In this document: positions 9,181 through 42,180 of the stretch, piece after piece | Layout: the number at the start of each line of letters is the position of its first letter | Numbering within the stretch: the first letter of the stretch is position 1 | DNA from: Morinoia aosen | Taxonomy: Eukaryota > Arthropoda > Malacostraca > Amphipoda > Talitridae | DNA length: 64,000 nt | Direction: 5' to 3' | Assembly: GCA_030386875.1 (NCBI GenBank) | Contig: CM059557.1 | Location: 56,374,514 to 56,438,513 of the forward strand | Program-made: the position numbers and the translations under genes | Notes under the pieces: model-generated | The model's database searches: none | What the model saw: the letters and a program-made list of their open reading frames with translations, nothing else | Told to the model about the DNA's origin: nothing

Positions 9181-11040
9181 GTATGGTATTCTGACGCTAG
9201 ATAAAAAACCTTGGGTATTCTGAAGCTGGATAAGAAACGTTGGGTATTCTGAAGCTGGATAAGAAACGTTGGGTATTCTGAAGCAGGATAAGAAACGTTG
9301 GATATTCTGAAGCTGGATAAGAAACGTTGGGTATTCTGAAGCTGGATAAGAAATGTATTGCATTCTGAAGCTGGATAAGAAACGTTGGGTATTCTGAAGC
9401 TGGATAAGAAACGTTGGGTATTCTGAAGCTGGATAAGAAATGTATTGCATTCTGAAGCTGGATAAGAAACGTTGGGTATTCTGAAGCTGGATAAGAAACG
9501 GTGGATATTCTGAAGCTGGATAAGAAACGTTGGGTATTCTGAAGCTGGATAAGAAATGTATTGCATTCTGAAGCTGGATAAGAAACGTTGTGTATTCTGA
9601 AGCAGGATAAGAAACGTTGGGTATTCTGAAGCTGGATAAGAAATGTATTGCATTCTGAAGCTGGATAAGAAACGTTGGGTATTCTGAAGCTGGATTAGAA
9701 GCGTTGGGTATTCTGAAGCTGGATAAGAAATGTATTGCATTCTGAAGCTGGATAAGAAATGTATTGCATTCTGAAGCTGGATAAGAAACGTTGGGTATTC
9801 TGAAGCAGGATAAGAAACGTTGGATATTCTGAAGCTGGATAAGAAACGTTGGGTATTCTGAAGCTGGATAAGAAATGTATTGCATTCTGAAGCTGGATAA
9901 GAAACGTTGGATATTCTGAAGCTGGATAAGAAACGTTGGGTATTCTGAAGCTGGATAAGAAACGTTGGGTATTCTGAAGCTGGATAAGAAATGTATTGCA
10001 TTCTGAAGCTGGATAAGAAACGTTGGGTATTCTGAAGCTGGATAAGAAATGTATTGCATTCTGAAGCTGGATAAGAAACGTTGGGTATTCTGAAGCTGGA
10101 TAAGAAACGTTGGGTATTCTGAAGCTGGATAAGAAACGTTGGGTATTCTGAAGCTGGATAAGAAATGTATTGCATTCTGAAGCTGGATAAGAAACGTTGG
10201 GTATTCTGAAGCTGGATAAGAAACGCTGGGTATTCTGAAGCTGGATAAGAAATGTATTGCATTCTGAAGCTGGATAAGAAACGTTGGGTATTCTGAAGCT
10301 GGATAAGAAACGTTGGGTATTCTGAAGCTGGATAAGAAACGTTGGGTATTCTGAAGCTGGATAAGAAATGTATTGCATTCTGAAGCTGGATAAGAAACGT
10401 TGGGTATTCTGAAGCTGGATAAGAAACGTTGGGTATTCTGAAGCTGGATAAGAAATGTATTGCATTCTGAAGCTGGATAAGAAACGTTGGATATTCTGAA
10501 GCTGGATAAGAAACGTTGGGTATTCTGAAGCTGGATAAGAAATGTATTGCATTCTGAAGCTGGATAAGAAACGTTGGGTATTCTGAAGCAGGATAAGAAA
10601 TGTATTGCATTCTGAAGCTGGATAAGAAACGTTGCGTATTCTGAAGCTGGATTAGAAGCGTTGGGTATTCTGAAGCTGGATAAGAAACGTTGGGTATTCT
10701 GAAGCTGGATAAGAAACGTTGGGTATTCTGAAGCAGGATAAGAAATGTATTGCATTCTGAAGCTGGATAAGAAACGTTGCGTATTCTGAAGCTGGATTAG
10801 AAGCGTTGGGTATTCTGAAGCTGGATAAGAAACGTTGGGTATTCTGAAGCTGGATAAGAAACGTTGGGTATTCTGAAGCAGGATAAGAAACGTTGGATAT
10901 TCTGAAGCTGGATAAGAAACGTTGCGTATTCTGAAGCTGGATTAGAAGCGTTGGGTATTCTGAAGCTGGATTAGAAGCGTTGGGTATTCTGAAGCTGGAT
11001 AAGAAACGTTGGGTATTCTGAAGCTGGATAAGATACTTAA
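9181..11040. repeat. 29-bp satellite, subfamilies A and B interspersed
   Basis: About 63 units estimated from length. Each has tctgaagctggataagaaa followed by a variable tail. Type A carries cgttgggta and type B carries tgtattgca, both keeping the 29-bp length. B units occur singly after one to four A units in an irregular mosaic; rarer forms (aagcagga, ggattagaagcg) recur in blocks. All three minus-strand frames stay open for hundreds of codons (up to 628) because the unit lacks stops. The peptide repeats every 29 residues through three frames, so this is not a protein gene. Confidence 0.95.
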
Positions 11041-11390
11041 AGCATTCTGAAACTGGATGAAAAACTTGTAGCACCTGATGCTGAATAAAGAACTTATAGC
11101 ATCCTTGTGCTGAAAAAGGGACTTATGGCACTCTGAAGCAGTATAAGAAACTAATGACATTCTGAAGATAGACTTGAAACGTGTTAGATTTTGTGTTGGT
11201 CATGGAACATTCAGTATTGTGCGGGCCATGAAACATTCAGTATTGTGCTGGTCATGATACATTCAGTATTGTGCTGGTCATGAAACATTCAAGATTGTGC
11301 TGGTCATGAAACATTCAGTATTCAGAGGCTGGTTACGAAAAATTTCTCACACTGAGGGTTGCTGTAAAACTTTTTGTATTCAGAAGCTAG
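11041..11390. repeat. diverged satellite units, including a 26-bp subfamily
   Basis: Between the A/B block and the C block lie aged units. From about 11183 to 11325 there are five or so copies of a 26-bp version (gtgctggtcatgaaacattc), confirmed by the spacing 11245 to 11271. It shares the ctgg-atgaaac skeleton with the 29-bp units, so one ancestral repeat has given units of two lengths. Confidence 0.85.
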
Positions 11391-13571
11391 AGATGAAATC
11401 TGTGGCATTCTGAGGCTGGACATGAAACTCATAGTAGTCTGAGGCTGGACATGAAACTCATAGTAGTCTGAGGCTGGACATGAAACTCATAGTAGTCTGA
11501 GGCTGGACATGAAACTAGTAGTATTCTGAGGCTGGACATGAAACTACTAGTATTCTGAGGCTGGACATGAAACTACTAGTATTCTGAGGCTGGACATGAA
11601 ACTACTAGTATTCTGAGGCTGGACATGAAACTACTAGTATTCTGAGGCTGGACATGAAACTACTAGTATTCTGAGGCTGGACATGAAACTACTAGTATTC
11701 TGAGGCTGGACATGAAACTACTAGTATTTTGAGGCTGGACATGAAACTCCTAGTATTCTGAGGCTGGACATGAAACTAGTAGTATTCTGAGGCTGGACAT
11801 GAAACTACTAGTATTCTGAGGCTGGACATGAAACTACTAGTATTCTGAGGCTGGACATGAAACTACTAGTATTCTGAGGCTGGACATGAAACTACTAGTA
11901 TTCTGAGGCTGGACATGAAACTACTAGTATTCTGAGGCTGGACATGAAACTAGTAGTATTTTGAGGCTGGACATGAAACTAGTAGTATTCTGAGGCTGGA
12001 CATGAAACTCCTAGTATTCTGAGGCTGGACATGAAACTCCTAGTATTCTGAGGCTGGACATGAAAGTCCTAGTATTCTGAGGCTGGACATGAAACTACTA
12101 GTATTCTGAGGCTGGACATGAAACTACTAGTATTCTGAGGCTGGACATGAAACTACTAGTATTCTGAGGCTGGACATGAAACTACTAGTATTTTGAGGCT
12201 GGACATGAAACTAGTAGTATTCTGAGGCTGGACATGAAACTCCTAGTATTCTGAGGCTGGAAATGAAACTCCTAGTATTCTGAGGCTGGACATGAAAGTC
12301 CTAGTATTCTGAGGCTGGACATGAAACTCCTAGTATTCTGAGGCTGGACATGAAACTCCTAGTATTCTGAGGCTGGATATGAAACTCCTAGTATTCTGAG
12401 GCTGGACATGAAACTAGTAGTATTCTGAGGCTGGCCATGAAACTCCTAGTACTCTGAGGCTGGACATGAAACTCCTAGTATTTTGAGGCTGGATATGAAA
12501 CTCCTAGTATTCTGAGGCTGGACATGAAACTACTAGTATTCTGAGGCTGGACATAAAACTAGTAGTATTCTGAGGCTGGACATGAAAGTCCTAGTATTCT
12601 GAGGCTGGACATGAAAGTCCTAGTATTCTGAGGCTGGACATGAAACTACTAGTATTCTGAGGCTGGACATGAAACTCCTAGTATTCTGAGGCTGGAAATG
12701 AAACTACTTGTATTCTGAGGCTGGACATGAAACTACTTGTATTCTGAGGCTGGACATGAAACTACTTGTATTCTGAGGCTGGACATGAAACTCCTAGTAT
12801 TCTGAGGCTGGACATGAAACTACTTGTATTCTGAGGCTGGACATGAAACTACTTGTATTCTCAGGCTGGACATGAAACTACTTGTATTCTGAGGCTGGAC
12901 ATGAAACTACTAGTATTCTGAGGCTGGACATGAAACTAGTAGTATTCTGAGGCTGGACATGAAACTAGTAGTATTCTGAGGCGGGACATGAAACTACTTG
13001 TTTTCTGAGGCTGGACATGAAACTACTTGTATTCTGAGGCTGGACATGAAACTACTTGTATTCTGAGGTTGGACATGAAACTACTAGTATTCTGAGGCTG
13101 GACATGAAACTACTAGTATTCTGAGGCTGGACATGAAACTACTTGTATTTTGAGGCTGGACATGAAACTACTTGTATTCTGAGGCTGTAAATGAAACTAC
13201 TAGTATTGTGAGGCTGGACATGAAACTACTAGTATTCTGAGGCTGGACATGAAACTACTAGTATTCTGAGGCTGGACATGAAACTACTTGTATTCTGAGG
13301 CTGGACATGAAACTACTAGTATTCTGAGGCTGGACATGAAACTACTTGTATTCTGAGGCTGTACATGAAACTACTAGTATTCTGAGGCTGGACATGAAAC
13401 TACTAGTATTCTGAGGCTGGACATGAAACTACTTGTATTCTGAGGCTGTAAATGAAACTACTAGTATTGTGAGGCTGGACATGAAACTAGTAGTATTCTG
13501 AGGCTGGACATGAAACTAGTAGTATTCTGAGGCTGGACATGAAACATGTATCCTTCAAGTGCTGGAGATGA
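11391..13571. repeat. 29-bp satellite, subfamily C
   Basis: About 74 units estimated from length, each tctgaggctggacatgaaac plus a 9-base tail. The tail varies among tactagtat, tagtagtat, tcctagtat and tacttgtat, and most forms contain CTAG or ACTAGT. The 20-base core matches subfamily A at most positions, so the two blocks are one family. The array decays after about 13545. Confidence 0.95.
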
Positions 13572-18400: not shown

Positions 18401-19651
18401 TATATCAGGTTGTAACAGAAGGTCCATCCATTTTTTTAATTTGAAATAAAATGAAAATCCTATTAAAAATATATTTATTAAGTCTTCAACATAACCACCA
18501 TTTTTATTAATTACATCTTCCCATCTTGCCATAAGCTTTCAGATTCCTTCTTCATAAAATTTGGCCAGTTTGGACTCAAAAAAAGAAACTAGTTTTGTTT
18601 CGACCTCTTCTCCTGAGGTAAACCCATTTAAATGATTTTGTGAGCTCCTGAGAACATGAAAATTGGTTGAAGCAAGATCGGGAGAATATGGTGGGTGATG
18701 CATGACTTCCCACCCAAATTCTTCAATGAGATTTTTGGTTGCACTTGAAGTGTGTGGTCTGGCATTGTCATGGTGCAGAATCACTCTTTTTCGATTGATC
18801 AAAGAAGGCCGTTTTTCCTGTAAAACTGCTTTTAAACGCGTTAGCTGTTGACAGTAAACTTCAGAACTTATTGTTTTATTGTCACCCATTAGTTCAAAAA
18901 AAATCCTCTCAAATCCCACCGTACACACAAAAGAATTTTTGAGGGTGCAGTCCACTTCTTGGCAGTGGAATTGGCTTTGAACCACGACTTAGCCTCTGTT
19001 TTTTGCGCTTAACATTGTTGTATAAGATCCCCTTCTCGTCGCCAATTATGATTCGGTCTGAGAACGCAGTGAACCACAACAGGTCACACGCTGTTGCCTG
19101 CTGATTTCTGACAAATCGTGTGGGTCCCATTTCCCAGCCTTTGAGACTTTGCCAAGTCTTTTCATTTCCCGATATTTGGTCATATGGCTTACATTAAAGG
19201 TTTTGCTCAGTTCTATAGTAAACTATGGTTGGATTTTCATCAATGGCAGCTTGTAATTGCTCAGAATTGAGTTTTTTGAGCATCCTACTCTTGGTTCATC
19301 TTTCAGACTGAAGACATTCTTTTTGAAACTCGAAAACCATCTTCTGCAAGTCTTTTCATTCACAACATCATTTCCATAAATGTCTTTGAGTATTTTTGCT
19401 ACTGAGCTTGCCGTATTGCCTTCATGAAATTCAAACAGTAAAATATGCTTGAAATGCTCTTTAATTGGAGTGTACATTAGGGCTAAAAATAGTTATTAAT
19501 TACGATAATTATCACAATATCTGAAATAAGAAATAATTTTTTTATTAATTATCATAGATAAGCACACAACATTAACAAGCTGAAGTGAAGCAATCGTGCC
19601 CTAAACATATAGCTCAAAAATTGGACTGAACTTCTGTTACAACCTGATATA
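18401..19651 (-). mobile_element. full-length mariner element with TIRs and TA duplications
   Basis: Perfect 19-bp terminal inverted repeats (TATCAGGTTGTAACAGAAG) lie at 18403-18421 and 19631-19649. They continue as an imperfect match for about 20 bp more. A TA dinucleotide flanks both ends (18401-18402 and 19650-19651), the target duplication expected of the Tc1/mariner superfamily. The element is 1247 bp, the usual mariner size, and holds one degraded transposase on the minus strand. The well-kept TIRs mean the copy could in principle be moved by a related active transposase; that is inference. Confidence 0.93.
18459..19477 (-). pseudogene. mariner transposase, D34D type, inactivated
   Basis: The minus strand begins with an ATG at 19477 and an N-terminal helix-turn-helix region (HILLFEFHEGNTAS, then TCRRWFSSFK). 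A second frame carries IIIGDEKGILYNN with the first catalytic D; the usual W of DEKW is G. A third carries ILHHDNARPH with the second D, then HHPPYSPDLASTNFH. The second D and the last catalytic position are exactly 34 residues apart, which defines D34D mariners, but the third D is N. Breaks include frameshifts near 19220 and 18925 and an in-frame TGA just before MARWEDVINKNGGYV at 18532. A normal mariner transposase is about 340-350 residues, matching the total span. Clearly non-functional. Confidence 0.93.
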
Positions 19652-29059: not shown

Positions 29060-29632
29060 TATTTGCTAGTTAAGAATTAACCTAACTCACCTGACATACA
29101 TGGCTGATAGCAAATGACACTAGCGAAGAGCTAATCTGACCTACATGACACTTGGTACTAGTGAAGAGTTAATCTGACCTACATGGCATTTGGCACTAGC
29201 GGAGAGCTAATCTGACCTACATGGCATTTGGCACAAGCGGAGAGCTAATCTGACCTGCATGGCATTTGGCACTAGCGGAGAGCTAATCTGACCTGCATGG
29301 CATTTGGCACTAGCGGAGAGCTAATCTAACCTACATGGCATTTGGCACAAGCGGAGAGCTAATCTGACCTACATGGCATTTGGCACTAGCGGAGAGCTAA
29401 TCTGACTTGCATGGCATTTGGCACTAGCGGAGAGCTAACCTGACCTACATGGCATTTGGCACTAGCGGAGAGCTAATCTGACCTACATGGCATTTGGCAC
29501 TAGCGGAGAGCTAACCTGACATACATGACATTTGGTGATGGCGTAATGTAGTGAATTGCTAATTTGACATACATGACATTCTGTATTAATGGAGAGTTAA
29601 CCTGACATACAAGAAATTTGGCACAAAAAGCT
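29060..29632. repeat. 38-bp minisatellite
   Basis: About fourteen to fifteen units built on gagctaatctgacctacatg followed by gcatttggcactagcgga. The spacing of aatctgacct (29171 to 29209) confirms 38 bp. Central units (about 29160-29510) are nearly identical apart from t/c and c/a changes; units at both ends are eroded. Confidence 0.93.
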
Positions 29633-32394: not shown

Positions 32395-34918
32395 CTAACC
32401 AACTAAAAGTAGAGGATGCGCACTTTGCATGTCGTTGAGCTCAGGTTTGGATTTATGAATATGCAGAGATTCTAATATTCTAAGTTTTATGGAAGAACTA
32501 GAGGAGCCAATGATAGAAAAGTCAGAGTCTGAGATTTTAACGTTACATTGAAAATCAGTGTGTAAACGGATCGAAGAGTGGGATGGGTGGCAAAGACGTG
32601 CACCTGTTCTATGACTGATTCCAACGTGCTCAGCTCGCCTAACGCGCAAAGTTCGGTTCGTAGAACCAACATATGCAGATGCACACTGTGCACAACGAAA
32701 ACGATAAACTAAGCAAGAGCGGAGACACATTGGAATTTTGTCTTTGTAATGGAACAAGGAACCTATTGTATAAGAATTGACAGGGATGAGCTTGAGGGAA
32801 ATTTGGGGAAAGTAGGTTGACACAAGTTGCAATAATTCACGTTTCAATTTTTTCAGATTGCTGACCAAAGTATGGCATTGAAACATACATATCCAATTTC
32901 GCAGCGGTCAAAGGTGTAGGATCAGCTTTGTGTATGCTATCCAGAAAATACCTAATTTTTGATTCAACTAAATTAAGAGGAAAACCATTGTCAGTAAAAA
33001 AAGAACGTAAAAATTGAAGTTCAGCATGTAAAACCTCATATGTCGAGCAGATCTTATAAGCTCTAGATAGCAGAGTTTTTAATTGCATTGATTTTAAATT
33101 TAAAAGAACAAAAACTAAAAAACTAGAACCAAGGCCCGAAAAAGAGGGTTTCCTAAACACAGAAGTTTCCAGCGTGCCATTGCGCCTGGTGACCATGGTA
33201 TCTAAAAACGCTAACTGGTTGTTGCTTTCGCATTCCATGGTGAAATTAATTGAATCGTGTTTACTATTAAGATATTCAAGGAAGAGATGGGGATGAGAAG
33301 GGTCCTTAAACAAAACGAAACTATCATCGATGTATCTCTGATAAAATACTGGGGCAAACTCTTGAGGACAATCCCGCAACCAAGCCTTTTCGTGATGGCT
33401 CATAAAAAGATTGGCAAACGTTGGCCCCAGGGGAAGTCCCATCCCCAGACCATCAAGCTGCCTGTATAATTTGCCCTCGAAAATAAAAAATGAATTAAGA
33501 ACACTATGCTCAAGCAAGGTTTTAAACAGATCCCGCGATAACCCTAAAACAGTGGAAGCAGCATTTCTAAAAAGCTGCGAAATACAAATATCCATGGTTT
33601 CTTTTAAAGGTATATTGGTGAACAGACTTTCAACGTCAAAGGACGCCATAAAATAATTAGCTGAACTGCTTAGTTTGGAGAGTCTATCTATAAATACAAA
33701 TGAATTATCAACAGTGTAATTACTAGTGGTAAGTGGGTTTAAAACAGGAACGAGATACTTTGCAATTTTGAAGCTAGGCGTATTATAAGCGGCAAATATG
33801 GGTCTAAATTGAAACTTCCTAGCGAAATCGGCCTTGTGAACCTTAGGTAAGCCATATAGTATGCCTGGGCCAGAACCGGAAACAAACAAGCTATTGTAAA
33901 CTCCGTCACTGAGCACCGAAATCTTCTTGAGTTTGCGCAAAAAGTTGTTGATTTTATCCTCTATTTTGGTAGCGTAGCGATGAATAGGTTCAATTATTAA
34001 TTCAAATTTTGTGGGGTCAGAAATAATAGCGGTAATTTTTTCGACATATACCGGTCTGTCAACAAGGACCACACCCCGGCCCTCATCAGGCTTACACACT
34101 ACCAGATTCGGATTACGGCCTAACTCTTTCAACAAGGCTACATCTGCATACGAAAATACAGCAGAAAATATTTTTGAACTTCTGAAGTTGTAAAAGAATT
34201 TATGAGTCACTGACCGCAAGCGGTTGCAAAATTCATCAAAACTAGTATCTACTGCAATTATTTGAGATTTAAGATCAAGCGCTAACTTTTCGAAACATAG
34301 AAAATATTTAAAATAATCAAGTTTGTACACGGGCAAACCAAAATCCAAGCCAAAAGCCAGTAGAGTTCTAAGACGTGAAGTTAGGTGAATAGAGCTGAAG
34401 TTAAAAATAACCTTGTCAGGGTTGCAGGGCTGAAGATGGTTGAGAATTCCCAGATCTTTGAGTTTCTTCACATGAGTGACCTTCGTGGCAGCTATAAATT
34501 CACCAACTGAAAGACGCACAGATCTAAAAATGACTGCCCTCATAATAGGCGAGAACAAATCACGGACATCACTCTCAGAAGCCGTTACTGCTGCAGAAGC
34601 TGTCTTAATGGAGGCTTTTTTCGAATTGATTTCCCGTGTTAAGAGCTGGGCTTGCCACGATTTATAAAAAGATGCTGATTGCAAAGAACGGCGATATAAT
34701 TTGAATCTTAAAAATTTCGGACACACATTATAAACTTTGCACTTCACTAAAAAATCGTAATCAAGTTTCAGTTTCTCATATTTTCTTGAGTTCGTTTCAA
34801 ATTTACGAAAAGCTTTGTAATGTTCAATGCCATAATTATTTCTCAAGAAGTTAGGAATATTTTTCTTAACGATCAGACTAATTATAAAATTTAGGGCAAG
34901 AACCACTCCACAAAGCAT
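32395..34918 (-). pseudogene. PLE reverse transcriptase / GIY-YIG endonuclease, one frameshift
   Basis: One long minus-strand frame encodes an RT with the KPDEGRGVVLVDR block at 34055-34097, RPIFAAYNTPSFKIAK at about 33770-33815, GLPLGPTFANLF at 33405-33452 and the catalytic YIDD at about 33325-33340. A second frame from 32886 to 32395 carries the GIY-YIG domain: VYRFRCAQCASAYVGST, then RRAEHVGISHRTG, and an ILESLHI block with the family's glutamate. The two are separated by a run of six T at 32848-32853. The inverted copy at 35161-35165 has five A and stays in frame, so one extra base causes the break. The likely start is the ATG at 34918; codons upstream of it lie in pseudo-LTR sequence. 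Without the shift the product would be about 840 residues, normal for EN-containing PLEs. Transposition relies on endonuclease nicking and target-primed reverse transcription. Confidence 0.92.
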
Positions 34919-35094
34919 ATTATTTTTTTTTTTTTTCTCAAAAATTAAAAAAAACACACATATTTGTGGTAATCTATAAGAACGTTTCGGGCCGAAACCC
35001 ATCTTCAGCTAAGAAATCTGGAATGATACAAAAAGTCGTACGTAAAATAGAAAAACATGAGCCAGATATTTTAACAAAAAACATTTATAAAGAA
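34878..35094 (-). repeat. PLE pseudo-LTR, upstream copy
   Basis: Direct repeat of 32028-32250 with a few base changes (for example gtggtaatct against atggtcatct on the plus strand). It ends at acatttataaag, where it joins the inverted copy. Confidence 0.88.
34984..35008 (-). ncRNA. hammerhead-like core in PLE pseudo-LTR
   Basis: Same core as at 32126-32150 in the upstream pseudo-LTR, unchanged in both boxes and stem II. Confidence 0.6.
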
Positions 35095-35096
35095 AT

Positions 35097-36019
35097 TTCC
35101 CTTTGACCGCTGCGAAATTGGATATGTATGTTTCAATGCCATACTTTGGTGAGCAATCTGAAAAATTGAAACGTGAATTATTGCAACTTGTGTCAACCTA
35201 CTTTCCCCAAATTTCCCTCAAGCTCATCCCTGTCAATTCTTATACAATAGGTTCCTTGTTCCATTACAAAGACAAAATTCCAATGTGTCTCCGCTCTTGC
35301 TTAGTTTATCGTTTTCGTTATGCACAGTGTGCATCTGCATATGTTGGTTCTACGAACCGAACTTTGCGCGTTAGGCGAGCTGAGCACGTTGGAATCAGCC
35401 ATAGAACAGGTGCACGTCTTTGCCACCCATCCCACTCTTCGATCCGTTCACACACTGATTTTCAATGTAACGTTAAAATCTCAGACTCTGACTTTTCTAT
35501 CATTGGCTCCTCTAGTTCTTCCATAAAACTTAGAATATTAGAATCTCTGCATATTCATAAATCCAAACCTGAGCTCAACGACATGCAAAGTGTGCATCCT
35601 CTACTTTTAGTTGGTTAGTCAGTTACTCTCACCGAATTCCAGTGATCACTTGCCCTTCCGTCCCTTTGTTATCTTAGGATAGTTAGCTTCGATTTCATTT
35701 TTTAAGCGTTTTGTCTTTTGTTCCTTTGTGATGCGTCGCTGGTGCAGTTTTCGTGTCTGTTTTTTAAAAAATTATTTGCTTTACAAATGTTTTTTGTTCA
35801 AATATCTGGCTCATGATTTTCTATTTTACGTACGACTTTTTGTATCATTCCAGATTTCTTAGCTGAAGATGGGTTTCGGCCCGAAACGTTCTTTTAGATG
35901 ACCACAAATATGTGTGTTTTTTTTTTAATTTTTGAGAAAAAAAAATATGCTTTGTGGAGTGGTTCTTGCCCTAAATTTTATAATTAGTCTGATCGTTAAG
36001 ATAAATATTCCTAACTTCT
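35097..36019 (+). mobile_element. inverted 5'-truncated PLE copy
   Basis: The plus-strand frame 35103-35618 (171 codons) is the C-terminal linker and GIY-YIG endonuclease of the same element, intact here. It includes RFRYAQCASAYVGST, RRAEHVGISHRTG and a stop at 35618. Untranslated sequence, a pseudo-LTR (about 35790-35990) and a 40-bp tail of element-body sequence follow. It starts at the codons corresponding to about 32917 of the main copy. The domain alone has no RT, so it is a structural remnant. Confidence 0.9.
35863..35887 (+). ncRNA. hammerhead-like core in the inverted PLE copy
   Basis: Same core on the plus strand, with CTGAAGA at 35863-35869 and GAAAC at 35883-35887, matching the sense of the inverted copy. 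Confidence 0.6.
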
Positions 36020-38752: not shown

Positions 38753-38769
38753 AGTTTAAGCCGGGTTGC

Positions 38770-38947
38770 GGAGTAGGAGTCGGAGTCCGGAGTCGGAGTT
38801 GCCGGAGTCGCATGTTTTTGGGTGGAGTCGGAGTCGGAATCGCTTCCCTGACTGTGGTGGAGTCGGAGTCGGAGTCGCTTTTCCGAATGTGGTGGAGTCG
38901 GAGTCGGAGTCGTTCATTCGGATGCGGTGGAGTCGAGGTTGGAGCAC
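38770..38947. repeat. GGAGTC hexamer-rich subterminal block
   Basis: Interrupted runs of ggagtc occur in three larger modules, each starting ggtggagtcg or gtggtggagtcg and ending in a cgctt/cgttc word. This is probably subterminal repeat sequence of the hAT-like element; the opposite end carries a shorter set. Confidence 0.85.
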
Positions 38948-40236
38948 TATTTTTTGGGGTCTTCGATTCTAATTTTCGCTAAAAATTATTTATAATTGTT
39001 TAAAACCGTAAGTAAACAAAACAGAGTTGAAATACTTAACTGATAAGCTAAGAACTTTGCAATGTTCTTATTGATTATTTCGTTTGAGCTTCAAAACAGC
39101 GTATTTATACCTATCACCTAATACGGTCATTGATATCTAGTCATTGTGGGCTCGCATACATAAATATGTGATACCTACGTGGGCGAAGTATAATTTTCGT
39201 ACTGGAGCAATCATTCATATATTACAGTTAAAGAGCCGGAATTTGTAAATGAAAGCATCGCAAATTCATTTTGTTTATTTCCGTTTCTTTCATTCCCCCT
39301 TCATATACGAGTAATGCATTACATATATAATAGATAATGTAATAATATATATAGTATATGATTATATTCAGTGTGTATATATAATAGTGTACACGACCCG
39401 TCATAAATGACGGGATTCGATATTCAAGTCTTTACACAATTCTTCCAGATGTGGATGGCAAACAAATATATCCATCCTATTAGTAACTGCAAGCAAAATA
39501 TTCTTGTACTTGTGCACTGGTGAAACTCGTATCACAGATACGGTCATTAAGCATCCTTTAAGAGAGTGAAAAGAAGACAGACCAACCAACCAAGACGGAC
39601 CAACCAGTTTTATTTGTTCAATACTGAATTGAACATTGTAATAACATAGCAGAAGTTAGGCACAGGAAATACCCAAATCTATTTATTCATTTATTTGTTT
39701 AAGGAAACACTTGGCATTTTATTGTACAAAAATAATCAACACTATTTAGGGTTTTTTTTTGTGCGGACAAATTTCAAACATATGTACAAAAACTCAAAAT
39801 AAATCAATTACCACGAATGATAAAATGCCCAAAACTCCTTAGTTTTCGAGTTATAAGGACTTAAAAGAAACTTTAAAATTTAAAGTAGGGTACCACGTGC
39901 GCGCCAATGTTAGAGCTGTCTTGATAGTTCCAACCCCCTAAAGCAGTTTTTTGTTATTTTTACAATAAAAAGAGCAAGCGTTTTGCCATCACGTAAAATT
40001 TGCAATTTAAATGTTCGTTAGGACATTAACACGAAGTTATCAATGATGAACTTAAGTAGTTATTTCATTAAATTCATAAAACGTACAAACATTCAATGCT
40101 TAATAGCTTGAAACTGCAGATACTTTCCTTACCGGGAAATGCTTGCAGTTCTCATTGTAAGAATATCAAAAACCTGTTTCAGTGGAGTCGGAACTATCAA
40201 GACTACACTTTTTACTCTTCAAATTACTCTAAGTCA

Positions 40237-40452
40237 TGTTCAATTTAATCCAAGTCCAGTTCAATTTAATCCAAGTCCAGTTCAATTTAATCCTGGTCCA
40301 GTTCAATTTAATCTAAGTTCAGTTCAATTTAATCCAAGTTCAGTTCAATTTAACCCAAGTTCAGTTCAATTTAATCCAAGTCCAGTGCAATTTAATCAAA
40401 TTTCAGTTCAATTTAATCAAAGTCAAGTTCAATTTAATCCAAGCCAAATTTA
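40237..40452. repeat. 21-bp tandem repeat, about ten copies
   Basis: Units of ttcaatttaatccaagtcca plus one base repeat every 21 bp. The plus-strand frame across it encodes a VQFNPSP heptad; since 21 is a multiple of three this openness is expected and not evidence of a protein. The partner block in the other arm (41137-41243) has about five inverted copies, so copy number changed after the palindrome formed. Confidence 0.9.
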
Positions 40453-41136
40453 AATTAAAACAACCCTGAGCTGAGTTAAGAATTGACATAATCACTCGTT
40501 AATTTGAGCATTTTTTGTGTTAAATATGTGTCTATTGGATGTGGTGGGCAAACCGTTTTTCCTTTCAGCAAGGAATACATAAAATTTCCGCCGGTGTTAC
40601 AATACAAATGCAAGCTGTCCTAAAATGTGCTAAGTATCCAGCATCAGGAGGCAGAGTGTGATTCTGATCTTTGACCGGCGTAAAAGATAAAAGTCAATTA
40701 TAAAAATTCGTTTTGTACTACTCATTAAACTTATTTTAAAATTCTACGTTAAGGGTAGTATGCATCTATTCAAATATTTATGTTCAAAAGGTCATTTTAT
40801 GTTACACATACACAGAGCAGTATCGAGGAGTTATTTACACACAAATAGAGATTTATATGCGTGAAATTCCACTTTATCACTTGTATGAAATCACATATAC
40901 TTGCTACTACATAAGATTATCATTGGACGATTTTTAGATTTAATATTTAAAAGAAATATAGCAACGAAGTAGTTCTTTCGCTCGTCCAAACGAGCGAAAT
41001 CTCGCACACGTGAAAGTTTTATTTATTCCTTGCTGAAAAGAAAAACGATTGTCTCGCTCATCACATCCAATAGACACGTATTTATCTCAAAAAAACGCTC
41101 TAATTAACGAGTGAGTACGTCAATTCTTAACTCAAC

Positions 41137-41243
41137 TTAGAGTTGGATTAATTTGAATTTGACTTGGATTAAATTGAACTTGACTTAGATTAATTTGAAC
41201 TTGACTTGGATGAATTCGAACAAGACTTGGATTAATTGAAGTA
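41137..41243. repeat. inverted partner of the 21-bp tandem repeat
   Basis: About five diverged units of the reverse complement (ttggattaatttgaacttga plus one base). Confidence 0.85.
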
Positions 41244-42180
41244 AAAAGGTAGCGCTAACATTGGTGCGAACGCGGTATCTTACTTTAGGTTTCAGAGTTT
41301 CTTTAAGTCCTTATAATTTCAAAATTTAGGAGTTTTTGGCATTTCATCATTCGTAAAAAGTGCTTTATTTTGAGTTTTTCAACCTATGGTGGAAACTTTT
41401 GCGCACAAAAAATACGTTATATACTGTATATAATGAAACGCCAGGTGCTTCCATTAATTTATAAATAAATATTTGTTTTTGATCGTAATTTCCCCTGTGT
41501 TTTTACAATGGGAATCAGCTTGCTTGGATGGTATCATAAATACCATTTAAATAATATGAAAAACTTGGCATTGGCTCACTTTTGTTTACAAGTAGAAAAT
41601 TTTGCGTGAAAATTGAATCTATTATTAAGAAAATGCAGCTTACCGTTGTAAAAATGTGTGGCAAACTTGTTGAAAACTTCTTGGCTAATTACAATTAGAA
41701 ATACAATACACAGTTGTTGCTTGCTTGGTTGGTGCGTGCGTCTGTGACGTTCATAAGGATGCTTAATGACCGTATCTGTGATGCGAGTTTCACCAGTGCA
41801 CAGGTACAAGAACATTTTAATCGCGGGTACTATTAGGGTGGATCTATTTGTTTGTCAGCTTTATCTTGGGACTTTTTTAAAGGAAACTATCGAATCCCGT
41901 TATTTTTGACGATCATGTACACTAGTAGATATATATTAGTAAAACTTGATTTTTAACATTTGGTTGCCAATTTGAAAGTCGTTCATAAATAAAAAACATA
42001 ATAAGCATGTGTTCAGGTTGCAACATCTGCAACCAATAATATTCATCTTATAAATTATGAACAAGAGTTGGAGTCACAAAATTGTGATTAGGTGGAGTCG
42101 GTGTTGGAGTCGCAAAATTCTGGAAAGGTGGAGTCGCAGTCGCAAATTCATTCCTTCGACTCCGCAACCCTGGGTTTAAG

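Follow-up and report, generated by a model that had tools for sequence, protein, structure and literature searches.

A probable large non-autonomous hAT-type DNA transposon family with internal inverted arms in the genome of Morinoia aosen

What is the 3.4-kb element that lies, without a transposase of its own, between 8-bp duplications in the 64,000-nucleotide stretch of Morinoia aosen DNA analysed here (the window)? We regard it, with a probability of roughly three in four (about 77%), as a copy of a large, non-autonomous family of cut-and-paste DNA transposons of the hAT type. The copy is an old insertion and a deletion derivative, and the family is real, apparently undescribed and broadly familiar in kind. 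In the mechanism that we propose, a hAT transposase encoded elsewhere would recognise the 19-bp inverted ends together with subterminal GGAGTC repeats, which run in one direction and are more numerous at the left end, and would cut and reinsert the element in trans, leaving an 8-bp duplication; by analogy with Hermes, these repeats may be bound by a BED domain. The inverted arms in the interior would be passengers from an old inverted duplication, possibly able to form a long hairpin and not kept alike, and the window copy would be missing ~0.8–1.4 kb ahead of its left arm as well as 0.55 kb from the tip of the hairpin. The family joins a foldback-like architecture to ends of the hAT type, which match thousands of places in the genome, and its arms can be dated.

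The window copy opens with CCGGGTTGCGGAGTA at 38761 and closes, on the minus strand, with CAGGGTTGCGGAGTC at 42172 (Table 1). The inverted ends of the family begin with CAGGGTTGCGGAG, and CAGGGTTGCGGAGTCGGAG is common to the left and right end types, slightly decayed in the window copy; decay of this sort also affects the ends of other single copies (e.g. TATGG at one end of L009). Within the window alone, the end motif carries little weight as evidence (3 matches, 0.57 expected). Across the genome searched (1.99 Gb in 29 contigs) it becomes strong evidence, because a 21-base left-end pattern with up to one mismatch matched 2,322 places and a 25-base right-end pattern with up to two mismatches 2,539, against 0 for each of the reversed-pattern controls. 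A preliminary description made from the letters of the window had proposed hAT-like terminal repeats and a near-perfect 8-bp duplication. The former are confirmed by the 19-bp inverted ends and these thousands of matches, the latter by AGTTTAAG and GGTTTAAG, which agree at seven of eight bases. When the two flanks of the window copy, which are unique over ~210 bp on each side, were joined and used to look for an empty site, they matched themselves alone, so that no paralogous empty site was found.

Table 1. Features of the window element (positions within the window)
Feature	Position	Strand	Remarks
Whole element	38761..42172	+	3,412 bp; internally deleted copy, family usually 4.8–6.7 kb; from own-genome search and same-ended complete relatives
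Left target-site duplication AGTTTAAG	38753..38760	+	7/8 vs right copy
Left terminal inverted repeat	38761..38779	+	19 bp in family, slight decay in window copy
Left subterminal array	38776..38950	+	GGAGTC hexamers, part in 35-bp units
Extra sequence in relatives	39303..39343	.	40 bases here; four relatives have 860, 1,420, 1,424 and 1,483
Left arm, outer block B1	39376..39594	+	also in very abundant repeat
Left arm, middle block B2	39755..39930	+	self-comparison
Left arm, inner block B3	40203..40587	+	holds 21-bp array at 40218-40458, 11.5 copies
Missing loop and part of right arm	40992..41013	.	21 bases here vs 549–566 bp in four relatives
Right arm, inner block B3'	41014..41252	-	82–83% vs B3; 4.9 copies of 21-bp repeat at 41134-41237
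Right arm, middle block B2'	41238..41412	-	80% vs B2
Right arm, outer block B1'	41720..41933	-	79% vs B1
Right subterminal array	42067..42149	+	36-bp units, GGAGTC oriented as at left end
Right terminal inverted repeat	42154..42172	-	inverted partner of left end
Right target-site duplication GGTTTAAG	42173..42180	+	7/8 vs left copy

A search of the genome with the element returned at least 361 matching pieces (40 of 18,638 candidates were scored). From these pieces we read 28 loci, partly overlapping and mostly picked for a right-end match, every one of which has at least one recognisable end. Both ends, of different type, are present in the window copy (L001) and in L009, L013, L014 and L016; these five complete copies represent four independent insertions, L013 and L014 being duplicates, and have ends, arms and duplications in common. 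The boundaries first proposed are borne out by copies elsewhere in the genome that terminate at points matching 38761 and 42172. On contigs C1 and C2 (to 61.4 Mb), 21 of 33 exact right ends have a correctly oriented exact left end within 20 kb, where 0.28 were expected, and wrong-orientation neighbours within that distance number two. One of the 21 pairs spans 3.5 kb, sixteen span 5.7–6.7 kb and four span 10.7–17.2 kb; with 3.4 kb in the window and 16 of 21 pairs in the 5.7–6.7 kb class, the label of a MITE has to be dropped. The left ends of L029, L030 and L032 are 91–97% identical to one another over 1.5 kb and, in the aligned parts, ~77–82% identical to the armed copies. With the L032 left end as query, 40 of 40 scored places (query included) were 96–100% alike over ~1.5 kb, which shows that one subfamily spread recently. 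The 13-base end CAGGGTTGCGGAG was absent from the freely accessible papers searched, and their literature on foldback elements, hAT elements and MITEs, judged by titles and the starts of abstracts, contained no such family.

How are the arms built, and how old are they? BLAST of the window against itself resolves them into three blocks (E 3e-24 to 4e-61, identity 79–83%). In the window copy the arms are separated from the left end by 615 bp and from the right end by 239 bp, and each carries a 21-bp tandem repeat, estimated earlier at about ten and five copies and measured here at 11.5 and 4.9. The palindrome can no longer be called intact: its arms have diverged (79–83%), are interrupted and lack the tip present in four relatives. 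The sites of the deletions (Table 1) were located by aligning the five complete copies; in one of these, L009, the arms measure ~1.3 and ~1.5 kb around a spacer of ~250 bp.

In trees built for each block from as many as 24 copies (with the window copy and duplicate loci, but leaving L022 aside), the left arms group apart from the right arms, each side as its own clade, for three of three blocks (support 0.89, 0.997 and 0.74), and same-side arms of different copies are 84–88% alike. The two arms of one copy have identities of 0.752, 0.775 and 0.809 in the three blocks, compared with 0.751, 0.773 and 0.813 for arms taken from different copies (P by permutation 0.32, 0.17 and 0.91; 13, 13 and 14 copies after dropping the palindromic duplicate L022 as well as L012 and L014, which duplicate L011 and L013). 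Since the left and right clades are distinct and a copy's own arms are no closer than arms across copies, the inverted duplication predates the spread of the copies read; recent gene conversion between the arms was considered and is rejected, own arms being no closer than those of different copies. The arms are most simply seen as an inverted duplication of ancestral date rather than a recent foldback insertion, and there is no sign that conversion or selection has kept them alike.

These relationships bear on the choice, offered in the preliminary description, between a foldback element having jumped into a hAT MITE and a composite family of its own. A family of its own it is; a foldback landing in this particular copy is contradicted by the presence of both arms in five complete copies and by their distinct clades. 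A separate foldback inserted into a hAT-like element, with arms and ends as two nested insertions, is unlikely as a general account too, even if the outer arm block gives it some substance. A B1 word had 19,892 genome matches at up to two mismatches (control 8) and a second one 12,740 (control 64), against 1,930 for a B3 word (control 9) and 763 for a B2 word (control 10; the listed 18-base word plus two window bases), numbers that are not strict copy counts because the words differ in conservation. In another sense, then, the idea of nesting is partly true: the B1 word has about ten times the matches of the inner-arm word, and the block is present in a separate repeat. That repeat is represented by L068 (C1:9187380-9187980), which is ~71% like B1 over ~180 bp and whose 601-bp stretch is 97–100% identical in all 40 copies scored (counting the query), so the outer block of the arms has relatives in a family that is both abundant and uniform. 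Moreover, C1 has 69 exact matches to the outer-arm word, 41 of which fall inside no exact left end. Against these observations stand the 25 of 58 exact left ends on the same contig that do have an exact outer-arm word inside them (22 at 2.45–2.54 kb, 0 within 5 kb outside), the same arrangement of arms in all five complete copies, and the distinct clades of left and right arms, which refute a recent nested insertion for the window copy. The other family also has the opposite arrangement to that of the window element (minus then plus, ~2.3 kb): in a list of 100 exact B1 places, every one of them on C1, five outward-facing pairs have a spacing of 2,315–2,368 bp and a further pair has one of 2,114 bp.

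The element may nevertheless be partly composite, because B1 also occurs in a very abundant repeat that is 97–99% uniform. Going further, one could picture B1 as a ~190-bp module common to at least two very abundant families, sitting there in inverted pairs that face opposite ways and serving as an exchangeable cis element, a proposal that we offer as a long shot. If true, B1, be it a transposase-binding site, a promoter or a source of small RNAs, would drive the success of the family that acquires it, and the long hairpin would be its working form.

Returning to the hAT-type family as our preferred reading, its superfamily name rests on ends, duplication and target, since no mobilising transposase was found. 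The inverted ends of hAT elements are short and start with a CAGNG-like motif, which CAGGG fits. Target duplications are perfect over eight bases in L009 and in an insertion at C1:697237-703854 (its ends lie in L031 and L003), and match at seven of eight in the window copy, in L013/L014 and in L016. For 24 insertions, each entered a single time (7 flanks from left ends and 17 from right ends, mostly from one end only, duplicates merged by hand), flank symmetry was 0.389 at 8 bp, compared with 0.287 at 7 bp, 0.259 at 9 bp and a background of 0.266, and the position of this peak rejects a duplication of 7 or 9 bp. T occupies position 2 and A position 7 in 17 of the 24 targets each (P 6e-5 and 1e-4), the edges reading G/C, T, T on one side and A, A, G/C on the other. 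Hermes has a preference for 8-bp nTnnnnAn sites (PMC10368747). Judged by these sequence features, the combination of short CAGGG-type ends, an 8-bp duplication and an nTnnnnAn-like target is a hAT signature.

Could the element instead belong to the P superfamily and have a foldback-like structure, as Galileo does? We consider this quite unlikely. P-type elements likewise duplicate 7–8 bp of target, the site having a T close to its start and an A close to its end, as here. Galileo has long inverted repeats, tandem repeats inside some of its copies, and duplications of 7 or 8 bp whose consensus is GTATTAC (PMC4168063). The symmetry here, however, peaks at 8 bp (0.389) and not at 7 bp (0.287), and the arms stop short of the ends, whose CAGGG start is of the hAT type by the customary consensus.

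That the element lacks a transposase, as first noticed for the window copy, is borne out by the five complete copies; none shows the transposase of an autonomous hAT element. Their longest stop-to-stop frames measure 80–131 aa, and set against 30 shuffles (maxima 124–190) four of the five stay in range, the frame of L013 reaching 131 against 130 in its largest shuffle. Nine of the 17 listed frames (four copies) gave no Pfam match over the cut-off, two matches, DUF223 (E 0.09) and DUF3043 (E 0.15), falling far below it. By frame lengths and Pfam, a recognisable gene inside the element is rejected for the complete copies read. A further family copy, L027 (C1:7020922-7027579), holds frames that resemble, by eye, a nested retroelement, presumably of Penelope type.

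Matches to hAT domains in the genome amounted to 2,753 candidates, 150 of which were scored. No partner with the same ends turned up in 30 loci with a hAT domain or in five further flanks, the best end-word match differing at 4 of 15 bases (six loci). Two of the five further flanks end in CAGGGCTGCC, and hAT genes with such ends were rejected as the partner, 5 of 15 bases being different. Around 40 young copies, 0 of the 150 scored matches lay within 10 kb, the nearest being 161 kb away. As a separate observation, contig C21 accounts for 72 of the 150 hAT dimerisation domains that were scored.

The GGAGTC hexamers at the outer ends had been described as direct and not inverted, and counting confirms it: the left 300 bp of the window copy contain 13 GGAGTC and 0 GACTCC, and the right 300 bp contain them at 4:1, the single GACTCC being the terminal repeat itself. 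Across 28 right ends (filtered, duplicate loci included), there are 232 GGAGTC and 0 GACTCC beyond the terminal repeat. Should the mobilising transposase be found, these one-directional arrays could be used to test how subterminal repeats define left and right ends.

The capacity to form a long hairpin, raised in the preliminary description, is upheld by prediction. As RNA, positions 39376–41933 are predicted to fold at -951 kcal/mol, compared with -532 (sd 13) for 12 dinucleotide shuffles (z ~ -31), with 524 of 628 arm positions pairing arm-to-arm. Such a fold, together with both arms being present in five complete copies, is what one would expect had the arms been maintained for a function, e.g. 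as a long hairpin RNA for small-RNA silencing or in the synapsis of ends, but a copy's own arms are not kept alike and the window copy is without the tip, so that maintenance for function appears very improbable. No known structured RNA was detected in L001 and L068 at E values up to 0.5. Arms that are passengers, as we favour, would imply that long inverted arms can persist through amplification without concerted evolution.

An assembly or segmental-duplication artefact is hardly credible: some copies do lie in inverted duplications (C1, C6, C11 and C17), and L022 is a palindrome whose flanks are mirrored too, but the window copy has unique flanks and arms just 79–83% alike, and independent copies occur on many contigs. 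The inverted duplications on these four contigs, with flanks alike, are either real rearrangements or assembly artefacts in their own right, and C20 and C24 are perhaps similar cases, judged from equal scores on opposite strands alone; the palindrome at L022 (C17) has 2.5-kb arms that are 99.6% alike. Elsewhere in the window, 32395-35618 holds a 723-aa reverse transcriptase frame (RVT_1, E 6.6e-8), which we take to be Penelope-like, flanked on both sides by near-identical smaller frames of opposite orientation and without a Pfam match. A fragment of a mariner-type transposase lies at 18539-18988 on the minus strand (PF01359, E 2.9e-7). Minisatellites are present as two nearby 29-bp arrays of 65 and 74 copies at 9185-13545, the first of which leaves long minus-strand open frames, and as a 38-bp array at 29118-29535 (11 copies, 93% matches).

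How does the family compare with known systems? In the same genome, hAT transposase loci (L037, L042, L053, L062 and others) likewise have repeats of the hexamer type (TATCGG), which follow the transposase domain, but their ends do not match, and all that they have in common with the abundant B1-bearing repeat is a 60-bp stretch: the first 60 bp of L068 are 82–88% like the stretch just before the TATCGG repeats of hAT transposase loci. MITEs are well under 1 kb long, and those of the hAT type are non-autonomous, numerous and equipped with hAT-like ends; the present element resembles the latter in all three respects but is several times too long and has a complex interior. Foldback elements mostly, though not always, make Mutator-like duplications of ~9–10 bp. 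Tandem repeats within inverted repeats, as in foldbacks, are found here, whereas the arms do not reach the ends and the duplication is 8 bp and not 9–10 bp.

Tetris, a foldback element of Drosophila virilis, is similar in being non-autonomous, with tandem repeats in its arms and a non-coding middle, but differs in having terminal inverted repeats and 8–10 bp duplications, in its authors' suggestion of Mutator, and in its three structurally complete copies as against the thousands of ends here (PMC4079207). The same paper suggests that the foldback structure arose independently in several lineages, mostly Mutator (PMC4079207). Galileo shares with the present family long inverted repeats, tandem repeats in some copies, transposase-less copies and a link to chromosomal inversions (PMC4168063, PMC3688188); in Galileo the repeats sit at the ends and 7 bp is the normal length of the duplication, in contrast to the internal arms and the 8-bp site of this family. 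Compared with Hermes and other hAT elements, the copies read here show no transposase, their ~5–6 kb hold no recognisable gene, their long GGAGTC arrays run one way at both ends, and their internal arms exceed 1 kb. In Hermes, short subterminal repeats are arranged differently at each end and are bound by the BED domain of the transposase (PMC10368747). With Hermes and other hAT elements our family has in common an 8-bp duplication, an nTnnnnAn target, short inverted ends and subterminal repeats.
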